Below, in pieces: positions 20,182 through 48,067 of a stretch of DNA of 64,000 bases. How positions within the stretch are numbered: position 1 is the stretch's first letter; each line of letters begins with the position of its first letter. Made by a program: the position numbers and the translations under genes. Below the pieces are notes generated by a model that ran no database searches, was not told the DNA's origin, and worked only from the letters and a program-made list of their open reading frames with translations. Source of the DNA: Erythrobasidium yunnanense (lineage: Eukaryota; Basidiomycota; Cystobasidiomycetes; Erythrobasidiales; Erythrobasidiaceae); contig BCJC01000001.1 of assembly GCA_001600175.1 (NCBI GenBank), positions 3,085,652-3,149,651 of the forward strand, given 5' to 3'.

Positions 20182-21250
20182 ATGCGTCCGGATCTATGGC
20201 TTCTAATCCTGCTGACATGCCATGTGGCGCTGGGCGCCGAACTGAAAGTCGTTACTTTCAACATCAGAAGGCTTAACGTTGCAACGGAGCAGACTCGACC
20301 GAAGCGCTCCTGGGTGGAGTACCCTTGGGCGATCCGAAGCGTATATGTCGCCCGTCAGATCATTTCATCCGGCATCGACATCGTCGGATTTCAAGAAGTT
20401 CGAGGCCAGCAGATGCAAGATTTGCAGAACAAGCTATCCAGCCGCTATGACTCTGTCTTTCGCGGCCGTAACGCAGATCCAGGCGACAGCGAGGGAGTTC
20501 CAGTATTCTGGCTGAAGGCGAAATTTTCACTCGTCTCGGTCGAACACTTCTGGCTGTCGACAACGCCGAATGTCGCTGGTTCCAAATCATGGGACTCGAG
20601 CAAGATCCGTATGGCTACGAAAGTCTACCTGCAGCCAAAGAGCAAAAACATCAAAACAGCCATCGTACTTATCAACACGCATTTGGATGGCCAAGGAAAT
20701 CTTTCAAGACGCAGAGCAGCTCCTGTGGTCCTGCGTGAAGTATGTACTCGTGGGTCCATCACGATTCTCGAGCTAACGAAGGTAACAGGCTCGATTGGCG
20801 TCTAACATCCGCTTCCAAGGACGAAAGCCTCTAGTCTTGTTGATCGGCGACTTCAACGCGGTGGACAGTGATCCAGGGTACTCGGTCTTGACAGGCTATC
20901 GATATAATCGTGCCTCCGCCATCGGAGGGACTTTCTTGGATACGAGGAAACTGGCTGGAGTTGACAGCGCACCCACCGCTACGGGCTTCAAGCAGAAGAC
21001 CAGAAAGACTGAGATCGACCATATCTTCGTGCTCGATAACGGCATTGTCGGAAAGTACTGGCATGTCACCAACTATCGCTTTCTTCCATACAAAGTCAAG
21101 CGGGATGGGGCTTCTTTTAGGAGTAGCTACCACCGAGCAGTGATGGTAGTGCTCAGCAGCTGCGCGTATAGGACAGCAACGTTTCTTCCGGCGCTGTACG
21201 TTGCGCCCATAGTCTTCATAACGATGTATGTTTGGATGAGCGTGCCTTAG
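20182..21250 (+). CDS. Secretory-pathway EEP (endonuclease/exonuclease/phosphatase) family protein
   Basis: Two exons (20182-20739, 20789-21250) give 339 residues. A signal peptide is visible (MRPDLWLLILLTCHVALGA), followed by the EEP core: LKVVTFNIRRLN, GIDIVGFQEV, INTHLDGQG, LVLLIGDFNAVDSDPGY and TEIDHIFVLDN. The C-terminal ~25 residues are hydrophobic, so the enzyme is probably luminal or extracellular and membrane-tethered. The usual final S-D-H is S-Y-H here (SSYHRAVM). The Asp that normally orients the catalytic His is therefore missing, which may reduce or change activity. The family includes DNases, phosphoinositide phosphatases and sphingomyelinases; no substrate can be read. A related gene follows 105 bp downstream. 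Confidence 0.83.
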
Positions 21251-21354: not shown

Positions 21355-22544
21355 ATGTCGTCGCAGACACAGCTGAAACTCGCGACCTTCAATATCCGCT
21401 GTGCGAACATCCACCGTTCGCAAGCGATCCCCAAGACGGTCGATGGTGAATATCCTTGGACCTTCAGAAAGTACAAAGAGTCCCTGAGCGTCCTAACTTT
21501 CGAATGCATCCTGAAAGGTTTCGCGCAGGGAGGCCGTCCTTGACCAGGTCATATGGGAGCGGCCAGACATTATTGGCTTGCAAGAAGTTCTCGACAATCA
21601 GTACAGTGACTTGACAACTGCACTACCCGAGTACGATACAGTCGGTGTCGGTCGAGATGACGGCAAGCGAGAAGGAGAGGTGTGTATGCCACACACACGG
21701 ACTAACGCGCCTTTCCTGACTTCCGCTGTCTCAAGGCAGTTCCTATCTTCTACCTCAAGTATGCCGCCTTCTGAGAATGCTTGCCTAGGCTAATGTCCGC
21801 TTGTCAGAGACCGCTTCCAACTGGTTCACGTCGAGCATTCTTGGCTTACCGAGTAAATTCCAAGCTACACATCACTTGTGTAGGCATAGCTGATTCGCCC
21901 TTAGACAGCCTTCGGTTCCGGGTAGCAAGTCCTGGGATATGGCTTGCACTCGCATGGTGACGCTAGTCCACTTAAAAGACCGAGCAACTGGCTCCGAGTT
22001 GTCAGAGAAGAACAAATGTGAAGACATTGTCATTCTCAACATGCATTTCGATCACAAAGGCGAAGTATCAAGGCAGAAAGCCGCCGAGCTGGTCCTCGCG
22101 AAAGCTCAATATTACGCGCGGTCTCTCAACATGAGACCTCTGGTTGTTGCTATGGGCGACCTCAATTCGCGAGAGGACGAGGCAGGCTATCAGACAATGA
22201 CTGGCCGGCGATATACATCAAAGGAGGCTAGTAGCGGGACCTTCATCGATACCAAGCACGCTGTGGCCTTGCGTTCTACTCGACCCAAGGCTTTCAACCT
22301 CCTGAAGCAACCCTACGGTAGTGCAGGCACCTTCACAGGCTTCCAGAAGAAAGCTTCCGGCGAGACCATCGATTTTATTTTGCTAGCGCATAACAGAGTT
22401 GTTGGACCCGCAGAAAATGGTGCGCGCTGGCAGGTAACACGCTTTGGGGTGCTTCCAAACCTGCAGGAGGATGGACAATATCCATTTAGAGCCAGTGATC
22501 ATCGGATGGTCGTAGCTTGTCTGACCGGGAACGGTGCTAGCTGA
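21355..22544 (+). CDS. Cytosolic/nuclear EEP-family hydrolase, tandem paralog
   Basis: Five exons (21355-21470, 21529-21679, 21736-21758, 21808-21852, 21905-22544) give 324 residues with no signal peptide. The EEP core is complete: LKLATFNIRC, RPDIIGLQEVLD, LNMHFDHKGEVSRQKAAELV, AMGDLNSREDEAGYQTMTG, ETIDFILL and the terminal RASDHRMVVACL. All usual metal and catalytic positions (N, E, D/N, D, H) appear present. It shares order and spacing with the upstream EEP gene, including an SKSWD motif and a T-x-x-F-x-x-x-GTF-x-DT block. The pair therefore looks like an old tandem duplication, with one copy secreted and one intracellular. Exons 3 and 4 are only 23 and 45 nt. Confidence 0.83.
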
Positions 22545-24976: not shown

Positions 24977-25630
24977 ATGAAAGATCGGGCAGCCGCTTGC
25001 GCTGTACACCTTTTTGCTGAACACGACAGGCCAAAGTCCAGAAACGCGGGCGGCGGTAAGCAGACAGAATTCCGTACTTGTCTACGGTGCGGTGCACGGA
25101 TTTCGGTGAAACGGATCCAGAACAACTTGGTAGCATACGAATGGGTAGCCATGACCGCAGATGCGTATCGTGCCGAAATGAGGGCCAGGCAATCTGCAGA
25201 AAAGCGAGAGAGGCTAGAGGCCACCCCTCGAGAAAGACGTCCTCGATCAGACCAACGCCAGCCTAAGCCGTCAAGCTCTCGGCCAAGGTACACCAGTGAG
25301 GAACGGTGAGTTTTCATCCCAACAAAGAACTCGAATAAGCTGACAAGCACCATTGTCAGAGATGCCGCCAGGCAAGGATCTATCCAGAAATACAATCGCA
25401 AACGATATGAAGCCGCAGATGCGTGCAACCCCCATGCCTTCAGTACCCTGGAACCCCCGCGCAAGAAAGGCTCATCAAACGCTTGGCGACAAAAATGCTT
25501 AGACTGCGGTGTCTGGATCCAAATTAGCATCGACCCTGATCATCCAGAAGCACGCGATGCTCGTTACCACTGGGTGGATATGGACAGAGAAGCCTGGCAA
25601 CGATTCAAAGCCGATCGCGGCTACGAGTAG
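24977..25630 (+). CDS. Small protein with two C-x2-H...C-x2-C zinc modules
   Basis: Two exons (24977-25305, 25360-25630) give at least 199 residues. A repeated module is visible: AACAVH...RTCLRCGARISV and DACNPH...QKCLDCGVWIQIS, that is C-x2-H-x(20-23)-C-x2-C. Each is followed by a Tyr/Trp-containing segment ending in a similar helix (MTADAYRAEMRA and MDREAWQRFKA). The modules are joined by an Arg/Ser/Pro-rich linker. The repeat implies two zinc ribbons; function is unknown. The C-x-H ... C-x2-C opening recalls the tandem Cys/His array at 41.9-47 kb, but the rest differs, so a link is only suggestive. The true start may lie upstream because the frame stays coding-like before the ATG. Confidence 0.6.
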
Positions 25631-40901: not shown

Positions 40902-41351
40902 ATGGCCGGCGATGATGCAGGTGTTCAGGAGCCTGTACGTTGTCATCATATACGTATGCCGTTATCCAGCCTGACCCGGTTTCTCTGCAGTTTGACCTGA
41001 TCAAGCTGTCACTGTCCGAACGAGTCTTTGTCAAGCTGCGTGGTGATAGGGAGCTGTTGGGAGTGCTGCATGTAGGTGTGCATCCATACTATCCTGAAGG
41101 AGTGAAGCTGATGTTGATGCCAGGCCTACGATGGACATATGAACATGGTTCTCTCAGAAGTCGAAGAACAGATCAGTACGCTCGAAGTAGACGAAACAAC
41201 GCGGCAGGAAAACATCAAGGTACACGTATATATATATGTCCCAGAAACGCTTGCTAATGCTGCTGCTTCGTAGCTCGTCAAGCGGAACTACGAAATGCTC
41301 TTTGTCAGAGGGGATGGTGTCGTCCTAGTCTCGCCGCCTGCGAGGACGTAA
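40902..41351 (+). CDS. LSM3: U6 snRNP Sm-like protein LSm3
   Basis: Four exons (40902-40934, 40991-41071, 41124-41219, 41274-41351) give 95 residues, the usual LSM3 size. The Sm1 and Sm2 motifs are complete: PFDLIKLSLSERVFVKLRGD, LLGVLHAYDGHMNMVLSEVE and MLFVRGDGVVLVSPP. LSm3 is a ring subunit of both the nuclear Lsm2-8 complex, which binds the U6 snRNA 3' end, and the cytoplasmic Lsm1-7 decapping activator. The start MAGDDAGVQEP is the first ATG and splices directly into the Sm fold. Confidence 0.95.
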
Positions 41352-41711: not shown

Positions 41712-41918
41712 CTGTGCTTGCTCGCACACCATAGGCTCCAGCAGGCTCTCGCTCGTGTCTCTCTTGTCTCCACTGGCGCATCTGAAAATCTTGGTACTCT
41801 ACATTCAAGTACTCCAAGTAAGCCGCAGCATCGGCAGCGGTGGGTTGACCGCCGTACCACATCTAGCAAGGCCGTGCTGATAGCTCATCTACAGCCTAAC
41901 AAGCACACAAAAGACGCG
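41712..41918 (+). promoter_or_regulatory. Promoter core and leader intron of array gene 1
   Basis: The core ctgtgcttg at 41712 matches the ctgtgctcgc element of the other four copies and is followed by a diverged TATA-position sequence (ccatagg). A leader intron is predicted at 41818-41894 (gtaagc...tgctgat...ctacag). Core-to-ATG distance is 207 bp. The GGAGTTA box seen at copies 2, 4 and 5 is not evident here. Confidence 0.5.
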
Positions 41919-42200
41919 ATGGCCACTACTAATTGTGCACATCTGACTACTGTCAAAAAAGGGCAGGACGTAACGTGCAGCTTGTGCGGATACTGGATCC
42001 GCTACTCCGAAACATGCAACCATAGAGGAGGTGGGCAATACGTTTCACAGGGCTCTCAGAAGCACAAGTGGCAATGTGATGGTTGTCAAGCGACCAGCAG
42101 GCCCAAGGATCACCAGATGCGATGCATTCCAGGAGGTCTATGGTACCAAATGCAATGCCTTCAGTGTAAACAGCGCGCTGAGCTTCCCCACAATATATGA
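41919..42200 (+). CDS. Cys/His-rich small protein, array member 1
   Basis: A single coding exon of 93 residues starting MATTNCAHL. Candidate metal ligands follow the array register: CAH-x11-CSLC-x9-CNH-x13-HKWQCDGC-x12-C-x10-CLQC. No signal peptide, membrane helix or localisation signal is seen. The density of paired ligands implies two or three bound zinc ions in a compact fold, perhaps for protein or nucleic-acid binding; that is inference. Family not recognised. The coding exon follows a predicted leader intron whose acceptor is 24 nt before the ATG. Compared with members 2-4, the third-to-fourth ligand spacing is longer by five residues. Confidence 0.7.
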   Translation: MATTNCAHLTTVKKGQDVTCSLCGYWIRYSETCNHRGGGQYVSQGSQKHKWQCDGCQATSRPKDHQMRCIPGGLWYQMQCLQCKQRAELPHNI

Positions 42201-42894
42201 GCCCATCGCCCGTATCCTCCGTCTATCCTTAACCCTTCCTCCGTCTCTTGTCCTCTTTGAGGCCCTTTACACTCCCCTCACCGTCATGTTCCGCCTGCCA
42301 CGGATCTCCCATAATCTGCATGAAATGCAATATCGTTTCTCTCCAGATTGTATGTTTCATAGCAGGTCAGTCAAAGGTGATCATAAGCCTCGAAGCTCTG
42401 GCATGCTGCAGCTAAGTATATGACCCCTCTGATGTTCGCGTACTAGTAGGGTAATGATAGGCAGGCATTCCTGGTTGAAAAGTGGCCGCTCAATATGCTC
42501 TTTAATCTAGCGAGTCCAGGTCACGCTTTTCTGGCAGTTGGTCAACCCTAGGTAATTCATCTGACATTGCTTTGTATACCGTTTCATTCCATTACAGGTC
42601 TCTGTCCAAGCTGTCGCTGCTGAAACTAGTCTCTGCCGACGATGGCGTATGCATGTAGGCAGAGTCTCCAGTGGTTCAGGATGGCACACTGAAGTGAACT
42701 TGGAATTTCTTCAACGGACAAAAGTCACGAAGACCAACAGTCGAAGGGCAAGCTCAGAACAGCATTATGTGATTCCACTGCAGCAATTTCTCGGAGCCTC
42801 GCGCACCCCGCGATTCCTGTCATCAACCGTCCCTCTCCTGCAGCAGCTCTCACTCGATTGACGCTGAGCCACGATCAGTATTGCAAGAAATGGC
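42201..42894. other. Intergenic spacer between array genes 1 and 2
   Basis: About 690 bp with only short, non-coding-looking open frames in all six frames. Nothing recognisable until the duplicated upstream segment begins near 42895. Confidence 0.45.
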
Positions 42895-43020
42895 CACCGA
42901 GTCGCACTTCGGGCACATGCTACAGCTCGCAATGCCTCCGAATCCCCCCTCCTCCCGATTAAAGATCATATGTTGCCAAGACTTTGCCTTTGTCTCAGAT
43001 ATCGGCTCTATGAAAACAGA
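42895..43020 (+). repeat. Diverged copy of the array's intergenic repeat (copy a)
   Basis: The segment around gagtcgcacttcgg, catgctacagctcg, cctccgaatc and atatcggc aligns in order with the segments upstream of array genes 4 and 5. It is the most diverged of the three copies and leads directly into the shared promoter core. Confidence 0.5.
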
Positions 43021-43262
43021 GTGGAGTTAAGGATCCAGCACTGTGCTCGCTGAGCTATATAGCAGGCCTCCGTCTCTCTCTCTCTTCTTCTTCCCTGTTC
43101 TGCCGCAGATTGTCGCAAACAGCAGCAGTCAACCATACATATCTTCTCTCGTACACCTCGTGCAGTGAGAGTACGCCCTTAAACTCTCTTACAAGCGCTG
43201 CTGATCAGACTTACTCTTGTCAATAGCAGCTCGCAACGGCCCCACAACTTCAAGACGCCAGT
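43021..43262 (+). promoter_or_regulatory. Promoter core and leader intron of array gene 2
   Basis: GGAGTTA box at 43023, core ctgtgctcgc at 43041, TATA-like gctatatagcag immediately after. A leader intron is predicted from the donor near 43165 (gtgaga) to an acceptor at 43226 or 43229, containing gctgctgatcag. Core-to-ATG distance is 222 bp. Confidence 0.6.
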
Positions 43263-43532
43263 ATGAGTCGAGCTCCATGCCAGCACGGGAAGTATTACCA
43301 GGACAATTCTACATTCAAATGCTGGTTCTGCCATCGTCCAATGTCATTTGCACCCACGACCTGTAGCCATAGGACAAGGAGCTGCATACCTCGACGTCGG
43401 GCCGGTTCGCACCGCTGGCTATGTACAGGATGTGGTGATGGGGGAGTGGAAACTTGCAGTGCTTACATGGAAGAGCATGAGGTGGCCCATTGCCCATGCC
43501 GGCCACTGCCAGCCTCTTCATCGCAATCATAG
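43263..43532 (+). CDS. Cys/His-rich small protein, array member 2
   Basis: A single coding exon of 89 residues starting MSRAPCQHGK. Ligand register: CQH-x11-CWFC-x10-CSH-x13-HRWLCTGC-x7-C-x11-CPC. The last pair is C-x-C rather than C-x2-C. It ends in a short Ser-rich tail. The protein is basic in the middle (CIPRRRAGSHRW). Same promoter core and leader-intron arrangement as its neighbours, and no signal peptide. Sequence identity to the other members outside ligands and a few aromatic positions is low, so the copies are old or fast-evolving. Confidence 0.72.
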   Translation: MSRAPCQHGKYYQDNSTFKCWFCHRPMSFAPTTCSHRTRSCIPRRRAGSHRWLCTGCGDGGVETCSAYMEEHEVAHCPCRPLPASSSQS

Positions 43533-44350
43533 GCTTTTCTTGTGCTATCTTCAATTTTACTCTAGTACCGAATCCCTTCTACTGTTTTTTTTTTTCTTTT
43601 TTTCTTTTTTTTTTCTCCCTCTTATGGTTCCATATAGCTGCCCATCCTCCATCCACCCTGAATCAGCAACGCCGTAGACTCCGAAGGTCACCCCAAGCCA
43701 ACCAAATGGAAGCGACAGCCTCTCCCGGGTGCGTCAGTAGAAGGGCCAGGAACCGCCATATCAGGAACGGAATCTACAAGCTCATAGCAACGACTCCGAA
43801 GATAGTTATGTGGATTGCTTCAGACATACGCAATATGTTTACATACGGTGTGCGCTGACAATGGCTTTTTCTGACCCGATGAAGCGATATTAGCAGGCTT
43901 TTCCAGCAATTGCGCTGCCGAGCGATCAAGCAGACAATGGATATGAGATACCACCTACTCTTCGCGCAAGTCACGCCAAGTCCGGCGAGTACTGGGCGAA
44001 CTTCGCAAGTTCCTATGACATCGGATTTTTACGTGAAGCGCGTCTTTTCCAAGGTTTACTTAGCTGAAACGACTTGCTTTAGCAGTGCTAAGGTGTCTTG
44101 ATTTGGTAACTCGCGCATATCTACCTCTTTTGGCCAGTCAATTTGCTGGCGGTTCTTGACCTCCATGCGTCTGCACGCTCAGAGATGATTCCAAACAACC
44201 GGGGCCCGCATCCAGCACGTAGTCCCGTCACCTTCACCTGCTCCTAGGCGATCAAAAGGCCAAGATCCCGACCTATCTTCTAACTACCTATGTTGTGCCC
44301 TTTGGCTGTAAGTCGGCAAGAATCCGGCATAGTAGCTACGGCTTCATGAG
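43533..44350. other. Long spacer between array genes 2 and 3
   Basis: About 820 bp with no supported gene. It begins after member 2, contains a pyrimidine tract at 43585-43623, and has no extra copy of the ligand register in any frame that I could find. Confidence 0.45.
43585..43623 (+). repeat. Poly-T/pyrimidine tract
   Basis: An almost pure T run broken only by single C residues, 53 nt after the stop of array member 2. It could serve 3'-end formation of that gene or be simple microsatellite growth. Confidence 0.8.
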
Positions 44351-44598
44351 CTGTGCTCGCTCCTCTATCAATGAGGTTTTCCTGGCTTCTTCTCTGCTTT
44401 ACCAACTCTAGGTGCGCTCACTTCATACATATAAAAACCATCTGCTTATCGTAACACTCGTAAGCACCAAACCCATCCTCGCATAAAGCGTCGCTCTCAT
44501 ACCCTAGTGAGCAGCGAAAATAAGGTCTCGAAGCCTACCAGGACCACTGCTGACCAAACCTACTTGCATGTTAACAGATCAAGCTGCAAAGCGTCAGT
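44351..44598 (+). promoter_or_regulatory. Promoter core and leader intron of array gene 3
   Basis: Core ctgtgctcgc at 44351 followed by ctctatcaatgag in the TATA position. A leader intron is predicted at 44507-44577 (gtgagc...ctgctgacc...taacag). Core-to-ATG distance is 248 bp. The GGAGTTA box is not obvious. Confidence 0.55.
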
Positions 44599-44889
44599 AT
44601 GGCTCGTACATCGTGCAGGTATCCTGGCGATACATATGAAGAAGGTGCAACCGTGAAATGCGCACTCTGCCACCGTACGCTCCGTACGCTGACCACAGCT
44701 GCGTGCGCACATGGCGAACTTTACTACGACTCTAATCATGAAATCTTTGGAAAGCACTACATGGTGTGCGCGTCGTGCTCGGAATTCGGGGAAGAGTATT
44801 GTACGATGGTAGCACGGGATTCTCGGCAGCCCCTCCGCCAAGAATGCCAGAAGTGCGGCAAGCAGAACACACGGCGTCGCTGGTATTAA
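44599..44889 (+). CDS. Cys/His-rich small protein, array member 3
   Basis: A single coding exon of 96 residues starting MARTSCRYPG. Ligand register: CRY-x12-CALC-x11-CAH-x14-HYMVCASC-x7-C-x14-CQKC. The first histidine of the family is Tyr here. A basic tail follows the last CxxC (NTRRRWY). No signal peptide. The spacing HYMVCASC-x7-C is identical to members 2 and 4, which argues for a conserved fold despite low overall identity. Confidence 0.72.
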   Translation: MARTSCRYPGDTYEEGATVKCALCHRTLRTLTTAACAHGELYYDSNHEIFGKHYMVCASCSEFGEEYCTMVARDSRQPLRQECQKCGKQNTRRRWY

Positions 44890-45104
44890 GACAGCATCCC
44901 TGCATCATTCCTGATGACGAACCCTATACTCTGTCTACTACTTACGCTCTGCTGCTGTCGAAGTTACCTTCCCCTCCCCTGTCCTGCCTGCCTTTGGACC
45001 TTTCGGTCTGAAAGTCTGCTCCTACTCAGCGTACCCTCAACGTCGCAATCACATCTTGTCTTGCTAGGTGTCCTACTGAAGTACAGATCTCGAGCATTTT
45101 GACC

Positions 45105-45300
45105 ATCACGAAAGACGCTCCCTCACAGATTTGCTCATACAGCACTACCGCAGAGATGCCTTGGACGTGATGCTCGGATCTTTGCTTCCATCGACTCGGA
45201 TTCGACACATACCACCTCCTCCTCTTCCCTTTCACTATACATAGGTCAGACGACACCTATGTTCTACCTTTCATCCCTAAATCGGCGGTAAGAAACCAGA
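45105..45300 (+). repeat. Intergenic direct repeat, copy b (upstream of gene 4)
   Basis: Closely matches 46213-46410. Shared landmarks in order are cgaaag-cgct, atgct-cgatct, tccatcga-tcggat, cttccctttca, atacataggtcagacg, acctatgttct and atcggcgg-aagaa. The similarity continues through the promoter core, so intergenic DNA was duplicated together with the gene. Confidence 0.75.
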
Positions 45301-45553
45301 ATGGAGTTAAGATATCAAAGCTGTGCTGGCTGGCCTATAAAGCAGAGCTATCCTTGCCTGCCTCTCTCTTCCTCTCCACCACACTACAAAAGCTTTACCG
45401 AAGAGGCTTCGGCAACCGCATACAACGAACCGCTTGTCTGTCATCTGTAAGCATCGACCTTTCGCTCCCGACTGTAATGGTGCTGCTGATCAGAGTTAAG
45501 GATATTATCCGCAATTCTTTATAACGCCGTTAGATCAGCACGACCTCGGCATC
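45301..45553 (+). promoter_or_regulatory. Promoter core and leader intron of array gene 4
   Basis: GGAGTTA box at 45303, core ctgtgctggc at 45321, then a clear TATA box in cctataaagcagag. A leader intron is predicted at 45447-45533 (gtaagc...ctgctgatcag...gttag). Core-to-ATG distance is 233 bp. Confidence 0.62.
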
Positions 45554-45844
45554 ATGCCTGGCCTCCTATGCACACACCAGCGATTCGAACAGGTCGATTT
45601 ACATTATAAATGCAAAGACTGCCCACACCGATGGCGTGTCCCTATGCATATTGCGTGCAACCATCGCTCTTCCTGCACCCCTCGTGATGGGTTTCCCGGC
45701 ATACACGATTGGGATTGTTCTACTTGTGGAAATTGGGGCTCGGACTACTGTAGCACAGTGGCTGTGGACCCTCAAAGACCATACGACCATCGCCGATGCC
45801 CATTGTGTCGATGGGAATCTTGGTCCTATGGGGTTCGCAGATAA
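45554..45844 (+). CDS. Cys/His-rich small protein, array member 4
   Basis: A single coding exon of 96 residues starting MPGLLCTHQR. Ligand register: CTH-x11-CKDC-x11-CNH-x13-HDWDCSTC-x7-C-x15-CPLC. It is close to member 2 in the CNHR...CTPR and H-W-C-x2-C segments. Trp and Tyr are frequent near the ligands, suggesting a small hydrophobic core. No targeting signal. Its upstream 250 bp is the best-preserved duplicate of member 5's upstream region. Confidence 0.73.
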   Translation: MPGLLCTHQRFEQVDLHYKCKDCPHRWRVPMHIACNHRSSCTPRDGFPGIHDWDCSTCGNWGSDYCSTVAVDPQRPYDHRRCPLCRWESWSYGVRR

Positions 45845-46030
45845 CTCCTACGTCTCACTTCTTTCCTCCGCCCTACCTCTCTACAATCTACGTCCCACTG
45901 AAAGTCTTATTCAGTTTCGATATGTCTTAGGCGTTCCGACTTCCTCACGAGCTTCGTGGACTTAGAGCCTCTCAGTGTGTACTACCTCTAAAGGCTGCTC
46001 ATCCAATGTCGTGTGTTCTTCAGATGCGGT

Positions 46031-46160
46031 ACGGTACAGAGCTGATTGGACCGGCACTACTTTTATCTCCTAACTTATTTGTGTCTTCCTTGCTACTGAG
46101 CTGACGCTTCTTTCGCCTATTAACGTGAGATCTCGAAGCAAATGCATAGTGGATTTTTGG
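46031..46160 (+). repeat. 3'-flank direct repeat, copy a (after gene 4)
   Basis: Pairs with 47385-47525. Shared landmarks in order are tacagagctga, cactact, tcttactcat-like and tgtgt-ttcct, gctactga, and tagtggat-ttt. It lies at the same place relative to members 4 and 5, so the duplicated unit includes the 3' flank. Confidence 0.6.
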
Positions 46161-46212
46161 GAGGGCTAGGGACCGCCAGCACCAGGAACAGAAATCTGAG
46201 ATGCACAATCAT

Positions 46213-46410
46213 CCTTACGCACGCGAAAGTCGCTACTTCAAGGTCCTTCAAGCATAGTCTGCCGCAGAACTAAGCATCATGCTACGATCTACACTTTCCA
46301 TCGATTCGGATGCGACACGTAAACCCTCTTCCTCTTCCCTTTCATCATACATAGGTCAGACGCTACCTATGTTCTGCCCTTCGTCCCTATATCGGCGGCA
46401 AGAATCAGAG
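46213..46410 (+). repeat. Intergenic direct repeat, copy c (upstream of gene 5)
   Basis: Partner of 45105-45300, with substitutions and a few small indels. It leads into the shared promoter core of array member 5. Confidence 0.75.
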
Positions 46411-46661
46411 TGGAGTTACCGGTAAGAGTTCAACACTGTGCTCGCTGGCCTATAAAGCAGAGGTGTCCTCGTGGCTCTCTCTCCTCTCTTTATCACCACT
46501 CGAGGTACTACTGAAAAGTCAAAGCCAATCGTACACGAAGCAGCTGCTCTGGCGAAACTTGTCAGTTTTGAGGGTCTGCTCTTGACGTTTATTGTGACCC
46601 CTGCTGATCAGCTTTGCTGTCATTGTCAGCAGCTCCGATCCAGCAGTGGTCAGGTGCAGAC
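46411..46661 (+). promoter_or_regulatory. Promoter core and leader intron of array gene 5
   Basis: GGAGTTA box at 46412, core ctgtgctcgc at 46436, then cctataaagcagag with a TATA box. A leader intron is plausible from 46561 (gtcagt) to 46629 (gtcag), again containing gctgatcag. Core-to-ATG distance is 226 bp. Confidence 0.6.
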
Positions 46662-47000
46662 ATGCAACGATACCCATGCCCGCACAACTCGGTCGGCCAG
46701 GTCAACTACGATATGATGTGCAGAGACTGCGAGGAAAAGACGAGCGAAGTCAGTAAGCTGCATTGCAACCATGCGATCACAATTGGCATTTGTAGGTATG
46801 CTAATGCCGAAGTCCACCATTTTGATTGTTCGGCTCGTGGAAGAGCAGGACTCGCGCGACATAGCATGATGCGGAACAGTGCAACGGACCCAGGACCAAT
46901 ACGTTGCAGGTACTGCTTGGTAGAGACCACCTCAAGGGCCTGGCACAGAGACCGTCGCCGACTTACACGCGACCGCTGGCGTCGCGACCGTGAGGGTTAG
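46662..47000 (+). CDS. Cys/His-rich small protein, array member 5 (diverged)
   Basis: A single coding exon of 112 residues starting MQRYPCPHNS. The first half keeps the register: CPH-x11-CRDC-x11-CNH. The central H-x3-C survives in HHFDC, but its partner Cys is replaced (CSARG), and the following single Cys is also absent. A late CRYC pair remains. The C-terminus is an unusual Arg/Trp-rich extension (HRDRRRLTRDRWRRDREG) not found in the other members. It may have lost one metal site and gained a nucleic-acid- or membrane-binding tail, or it may be decaying. Confidence 0.66.
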   Translation: MQRYPCPHNSVGQVNYDMMCRDCEEKTSEVSKLHCNHAITIGICRYANAEVHHFDCSARGRAGLARHSMMRNSATDPGPIRCRYCLVETTSRAWHRDRRRLTRDRWRRDREG

Positions 47001-47384
47001 GCACTACTTGATCATCGCTAGCCATCGCCTATCCCTTCGTCTTGCTACCGCTCTCGTTGGATGGTCTCTTCGCCAAATTTTGTCACATCTGACGCCAGAT
47101 CTTTCCGTATGACTTCGGTCGAGTTTCAACCCCGCCGTGCGCACGATGATTATATTTGCATCCCACTTCGTCGATCCCGTACTCGGCGGCACCACGCTTC
47201 TCAGCTGAATGCCCTGCGGGTATTAACCGAAGTTTTGTCTAGCCCGCTCAGTATGGCGTGTTGCGATCTGTCTTCAGAGGATACCTCAAACCGTACGTTT
47301 CGCTGACCGTCTGTAGACACACTGACAAGATCTCGCGTGGGTCACGACAAGTTGTTCATATCACGCTGTAGTTTCTCAAATCCG
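47001..47384. other. Spacer after array gene 5
   Basis: A 384-bp stretch with no supported gene; only short shadow frames. It ends where the 3'-flank repeat begins. Confidence 0.45.
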
Positions 47385-47525
47385 CTATGCTACAGAGCTG
47401 AGTTCCACATCAGCAAGCCACTACTTCTTGTTTTCTTACTCATCTGTGTATTCCTGCTACTGATTTGAATTCCTTTTCGAAACCGGGAAGGAAGTCATCC
47501 AGATATTACGTAGTGGATATTTGCG
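47385..47525 (+). repeat. 3'-flank direct repeat, copy b (after gene 5)
   Basis: Partner of 46031-46160. It marks the right border of the tandem block; unique housekeeping DNA begins immediately after it. Confidence 0.6.
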
Positions 47526-47588: not shown

Positions 47589-48067
47589 TCATGAAGGTGG
47601 ATTCTCCTTCTCTTGCGACTCTGAGCGACTCTTTGCTGCTTCGGCGACCATTTCTTCGGTGATTGTGCCGTCAAGGAACCAGGATTTGTAGAGGATTGAA
47701 ACCTGCGCGTACATTAGCAATGGGCTATGCATGAGCCAGTGTAATCAACGCACAAGAACGCCCAGAGGCATAGGTTCTCTCAATGCTTGACCGTCTGCCA
47801 GTCTGTTTTTGATAATGGTGATGCCTAGCCGAACGTCAGCATTTGCAATCAGCTCTAGGTCGTATACACACCTCTATCAGCGCTATCCTGCTCTTTAGTA
47901 GTGGCTTTTGGCTCGCATAGCTTCTCGAGCTTGTTCAATGTCGTTGCTTTCCCGGACAGTCCGCGTCCTCTGCTTGTGGGTGTTAGCCAGATCTTGCGTT
48001 GTTCTTCCCAGGCTATTGATGGATCTAATGTATTGTTATTGCTCTCAGAGCTTGCAGCTGCGTTCAT
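47589..48067 (-). CDS. Gag1-like clamp (DUF4050-type) small protein
   Basis: Three exons (47872-48067, 47754-47824, 47589-47702) give 126 residues. The segment IAWEEQRKIWLTP, followed by LREPMPLGVLVSILYKSWFLDGTI, fits the Gag1-like clamp/DUF4050 pattern, in which a W-x3-R-x2-W motif precedes a PL-x-x-PM-L hydrophobic helix and a W-x2-DGT turn. In fission yeast Gag1 links the Pub1 ubiquitin ligase to Gad8. Family assignment is from pattern memory only and is moderate. The gene is divergent from ISY1 with only 71 bp between the start codons. Confidence 0.6.

Follow-up and report, generated by a model that had tools for sequence, protein, structure and literature searches.

What are the five small genes that, in the basidiomycete Erythrobasidium yunnanense, lie one behind another on the plus strand, flanked by an LSM-domain gene and ISY1? 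The window that we analyzed is a stretch of 64,000 nucleotides (nt) at 3.09–3.15 Mb on contig 1 of a 20.9-Mb genome in 10 contigs. An earlier note, made from this sequence, had described the five genes (M1–M5) as a tandem array encoding Cys/His-rich proteins with a strict ligand register. Our analysis indicates that M1–M5 are a tandem paralogous array, and that their non-coding parts share this descent; for M1, the non-coding support extends barely beyond a promoter box. We tentatively propose, at somewhat less than even confidence, that M1–M5 are an old array whose genes are expressed in concert and encode small, soluble proteins that bind zinc inside the cell.

The starts and sizes that had been given for the five genes (89–112 amino acids, aa) are correct, as judged by their open frames:

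M1, 41919..42200, plus strand: 93 aa; 12 of 12 ligands, the tenth placed by hand; the most divergent member, with a leave-one-out expectation value (E) of 0.0045
M2, 43263..43532, plus strand: 89 aa; 12 of 12 ligands; the final pair is C-x-C and was placed by hand
M3, 44599..44889, plus strand: 96 aa; 11 of 12 ligands, with Tyr at ligand 2
M4, 45554..45844, plus strand: 96 aa; 12 of 12 ligands; the top leave-one-out score
M5, 46662..47000, plus strand: 112 aa; ligand 9 is Arg and ligand 10 is His; an Arg-rich C-terminal tail

The register consists of C-x-H, C-x2-C, C-x-H, H-x3-C-x2-C, C and C-x(1-2)-C, and hence of twelve positions. The count of eleven ligands in the earlier note does not match its own pattern, which has twelve positions as written, but eleven Cys/His columns do align cleanly, each common to at least four of the five members. 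Placement by hand was needed for ligand 10 in every member and for the final two ligands of M2. Likewise, the proposed spacing holds for M1–M4, given the Tyr of M3, and fails for M5, which had been called partly degenerate, in agreement with the substitutions at its ligands 9 and 10. Overall similarity is as low as had been suggested: pairwise protein identity is 17–35%, with little in common outside the ligand columns. All five proteins are predicted to be basic (isoelectric point, pI, 8.4–9.4), and Cys makes up 9–11% of M1–M4 and 7% of M5, with His in addition. The reported absence of signal peptides is consistent with a crude hydropathy test, which found no N-terminal hydrophobic stretch in M1–M5 (15-residue hydropathy at most 0.45). 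The tail of M5 (46938–46997) is strongly Arg-rich; the other four members have no such tail.

Do the five genes have a common origin? We built profiles from four members at a time and searched them against the 481 six-frame open reading frames (ORFs) of at least 60 aa in the window, together with 10,000 composition shuffles. Each time, for all five members, the omitted one ranked directly behind the four training members and above the 10,000 shuffles, with E of 0.0045 for M1, 1.1e-9 for M2, 1.3e-6 for M3, 2.6e-12 for M4 and 1.4e-6 for M5. The best non-family E in these runs was 0.031–0.2, and the weakest case is M1 (0.0045 vs 0.2 for the best outsider). This recovery of every member bears out the proposal of a real paralogous array with a strict Cys/His register. 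Moreover, a loose pattern of the first eight ligands was found in five of the 481 window ORFs, namely M1–M5, and twice among 100,000 composition shuffles. When each member was searched against the 20.9-Mb genome, M2, M3 and M4 matched one another at E of 4e-4 to 6e-3. M1 and M5 matched only themselves, so their membership rests on the profiles and the promoters. The case for common descent is strong for M2–M5 and weaker for M1.

With each member as query, we found no further copy in the genome, though these loose searches are of limited sensitivity: the neighbors M4 and M5, whose promoters are alike, do not retrieve one another, and diverged copies may therefore have escaped detection. The only other place listed, on another contig (M4 query, E = 0.044), was rejected as a chance match; it lies antisense to an exon that we take to be NADH dehydrogenase-like, and contains a TAG. 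The five-member profile found no sixth copy in the window, apart from one chance-like half match. This plus-strand ORF, 25060–25263, resembles the latter part of the family register in its H-x3-C-x2-C-x7-C (E = 0.003 in a search of 2402 pieces of the window). It lacks the first half and scored like the shuffles in the leave-one-out runs, and we attribute the match to chance.

The genes also share a sequence upstream of their coding regions. Five copies of the box CTGTGCTNGCT are present in the window, all on the plus strand; each precedes one of the genes, 207–248 bp before its ATG. Only 0.45 copies are expected in the window, and none of 100 shuffles reached five. In the list below, the box of four members is followed by a TATA-like part, and the extended blocks of M4 and M5 are given separately:

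M1 promoter box CTGTGCTNGCT, 41712..41722, plus strand: TATA-like part not kept
M2 promoter box with CTATA, 43041..43059, plus strand
M3 promoter box with CTATC, 44351..44369, plus strand
M4 promoter box with CTATA, 45321..45339, plus strand
M5 promoter box with CTATA, 46436..46454, plus strand
M4 extended promoter block, 45186..45371, plus strand: 85% and 78% identity to M5 in two stretches
M5 extended promoter block, 46296..46486, plus strand

The first box copy begins at 41712, exactly where the earlier note has the array begin, although the note does not mention the box. Over 201-bp pieces around the box, the M4 and M5 promoters share 84% identity (162 of 192 aligned positions), and their promoter block is much better matched than the introns, the coding sequence and the 3ʹ flanks of the two genes. 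Within M2–M5, promoter similarity (z of 5.3–22.7) exceeds that of the coding DNA (z of 1.6–5.2) in all six pairs. In the genome, the M5 promoter matched the M4 promoter and no third place at E of 1; the M2 promoter matched only itself. The box with CTATA, allowing at most one mismatch, occurs at eight places in the genome, four in the array and four elsewhere with one mismatch each. The outside places are about as many as in a reversed control (three), and we rejected a wider promoter regulon. A second promoter element, allowing at most two mismatches, occurs at three places in the genome, two of them in the array.

Just upstream of the ATG, all five genes have the donor, branch-point and acceptor signals of an intron of 62–118 nt, those of M5 being weak. 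These leader introns are predicted from consensus signals only:

M1 predicted leader intron, 41818..41894, plus strand: GTAAGC, CTGAT, CAG
M2 predicted leader intron, 43165..43226, plus strand: GTGAGA, CTGAT, TAG
M3 predicted leader intron, 44460..44577, plus strand: GTAAGC, CTGAC, CAG; contains the ATG at 44568
M4 predicted leader intron, 45447..45533, plus strand: GTAAGC, CTGAT, TAG; contains the ATG at 45477
M5 predicted leader intron, 46561..46629, plus strand: weak donor GTCAGT, CTGAT, CAG

A loose intron pattern that covers all five genes, picked after the sequences had been viewed, fits 181 of 4000 random windows; a stricter one covers four of the five and fits 214 of 4000. Upstream ATGs other than those within the predicted introns of M3 and M4 lie before or at the position of the box or TATA.

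What has been conserved in the proteins besides the putative ligands? For each pair, we compared the proportion of nonsynonymous differences (pN) outside the ligands with that in 100 ligand-fixed codon shuffles. Values as low were reached by none of the shuffles for M2–M3, M2–M4, M3–M4 and M4–M5, and by one for M2–M5. The corresponding silent proportion (pS) is near the shuffle level in the non-ligand codons of M2–M5 pairs. More generally, silent sites appear saturated, and the synonymous divergence dS could be computed in only 4 of 10 pairs. Some protein similarity among M2–M5 has thus outlasted that of the silent sites, and this suggests an array of considerable age whose proteins have been under a degree of constraint. 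In M1, hardly anything but the ligands has been preserved.

How might such an array work? If M1–M5 are intracellular zinc-binding proteins, the Cys and His residues would coordinate three Zn2+ within one compact domain, and the shared box would put the five genes under a common regulator. The working surface may be formed by the stretches between the ligands, in which case each paralog could have a partner of its own, either a protein or a nucleic acid. Nucleic acid or acidic partners are slightly favored by the basic pI of all five proteins and by the Arg-rich tail that M5 carries.

Several observations weigh against this proposal. M5 has lost one or two ligands. The M1 promoter is similar to the other four at z of only 1.6–4.3, and M1 and M3 are more similar in coding DNA than in promoter. 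The promoter pieces were centered on the box once it had been seen, and the promoter likeness of M4/M5, and of M2–M5 in general, could reflect gene conversion instead of regulatory constraint. The pN outside ligands is not below chance for M3–M5 (18 of 100 shuffles as low) or for the four M1 pairs (14–84 of 100). Although pN is lower than pS in 10 of 10 pairs, codon shuffles aligned in the same way average 9.94 of 10, so this count is no evidence of purifying selection, and we dropped it as such. Finally, codon-usage scoring did not mark the five frames as coding; it did not mark known genes either, and so had no power here.

An alternative explanation, which we consider unlikely, is that M1–M5 are effectors or antimicrobial proteins that are exported without a signal peptide and diversify against outside targets. 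The array is tandem, strongly diverged and Cys-rich, and positive selection is possible given saturated silent sites. AVR-Pii and AvrP are secreted zinc-finger-fold effectors; Melampsora lini, the fungus of AvrP, belongs to the Pucciniomycotina. M1–M5 would resemble them as small fungal Cys/His zinc proteins, if they do bind zinc, whereas the N termini of M1–M5 are not signal peptide-like by the crude test above. The predicted spliced leaders contain no further ATG. The neighbors of the array also count against this reading: upstream, the LSM-domain gene ends at 41351, and downstream, ISY1 runs from 48139. No effector was among the PDB chains listed in our profile searches (15 and 13). Zinc-bound effectors do exist in rusts and the blast fungus (PMC9618136; a title cited in PMC11952758). 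AVR-Pii of Magnaporthe has C-X2-C-X12-H-X-C and one zinc site (PMC9618136), in contrast to the three that we propose per array protein.

It is also quite unlikely that the array is a very divergent branch of the RING or another treble-clef family, acting in ubiquitin transfer or as adaptors. A RING has a C3HC4 set of eight ligands, in which the pair C5-x2-C6 follows H4 at a distance of two to three residues. The array proteins resemble RING fingers (PF13923 and relatives) in C-x2-C-x(9-11)-C-x-H and a later C-x2-C, which correspond to RING ligands 1–4 and 7–8. They differ in adding an N-terminal C-x-H, H-x3-C and a C-terminal C-x(1-2)-C, and in lacking C-x2-C directly past the His: none of the five members has RING ligands 5 and 6 together, and M2, M4 and M5 have a lone Cys in that place. 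A profile of the family placed three RING chains at the top of a PDB search (E of 0.018, 0.066 and 0.15), and neither a reversed nor a ligand-fixed control alignment, one of each, gave a RING at E of 10. However, a profile of M2–M4 only gave no RING in PDB at E of 10. The best Pfam RING match of a single member has an E of 5.6. Against a profile of the 12 nearly complete among 32 RING matches in this genome, the array reached an hhalign probability of 16.4, vs a median of 16.5 for 100 ligand-fixed shuffles, and the RING hidden Markov model (HMM) score of each member was reached by 168–615 of 1000 such shuffles. Ligand spacing can therefore explain the RING resemblance. None of the 32 genome RING matches (E of 0.01) falls in the array. 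With the PDB scores neither reproduced by M2–M4 nor above ligand-keeping shuffles, we rejected RING membership. The earlier note had named a clear match to RING, MYND or ribosomal zinc ribbons as an outcome that would count against it; none was seen, the RING hint having failed the larger ligand-fixed shuffle control.

The zinc finger UBP (PF02148) offers another comparison. It has twelve ligands, three zincs, an N-terminal C-x-H and a C-terminal C-x2-C; the array register is similar in its number of ligands and its two ends, and differs in the order of the ligands in between. Compared with three UBP stretches from this genome, which run partly into introns, the array gave an hhalign probability of 0.5 over 11 columns, a score reached by ~6 of 100 ligand-fixed shuffles, and no member has a Pfam UBP match.

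We consider it improbable that M1–M5 are copies of an old gene that are in decay or are not transcribed, with the register as a relic. The ligand loss in M5, the little that M1 retains besides its ligands, and the lack of a positive coding signal in codon statistics would fit decay. In contrast, all five frames are open, the ligand codons have been kept despite seemingly saturated silent sites, and promoter likeness is retained among M2–M5. Metallothionein-like metal buffering would fit the tandem copies and the Cys and His content, but is highly improbable given a Cys density low for such proteins, the aromatic residues, the fixed and spaced register, and the absence of any metallothionein from the list of 18 Pfam families with E of at most 10.

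Is the family new? In the libraries searched it is unnamed, as the earlier note, which recognized no named family, had anticipated. No Pfam family passes its cut-off, the best being DUF6011 (16.1 bits vs a cut-off of 26.6), and NCBIfam and PHROGs gave no convincing match for M1–M5. A search of a protein database that includes fungi requires shared 5-residue words, and the paralogs themselves share none in 10 of 10 pairs; that the five-sequence search gave 152 candidates, none at E of 0.1, and M4 alone no candidate, counts against close annotated relatives only. None of 20 stretches in bacterial and archaeal contigs was confirmed, and a single 23-residue match in viral contigs was judged to be chance. 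We saw no such array among the papers listed in literature searches, which does not prove its absence from print. The stronger proposal is that M1–M5 are unlike any described family: a three-zinc, 12-ligand domain in a panel of co-expressed paralogs, with surfaces free to change and the metal core and promoter fixed, as expected of an intracellular panel for recognition or defense. We regard this as somewhat unlikely on present sequence comparisons.

Annotation easily misses small zinc domains, and a new fold as small as this would be interesting in its own right. Judging from the DNA, the order of constraint in this array is unusual: the promoter and the putative metal ligands are kept and most else is replaced. 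If the fold is indeed new, its small size suits rapid structure work, and the shared promoter offers a direct way to learn when these genes are active.

Elsewhere in the window, a minus-strand ORF of 70 aa (47855–48067), without a Pfam match, lies between the array and ISY1. Two plus-strand ORFs, 20182–20802 and 21939–22544, are endonuclease/exonuclease/phosphatase-like, the first by a Pfam match below cut-off and the second by eye only. As to relatives of the fungus, 27 genomes of Cystobasidiomycetes are mentioned in one paper (PMC12697161). A CCT-eta exon in the window has its top named matches (~79%) in Phenoliferia, Glaciozyma, Mixia and Microbotryum, all genera of the Pucciniomycotina; three further matches reach 86–87%.

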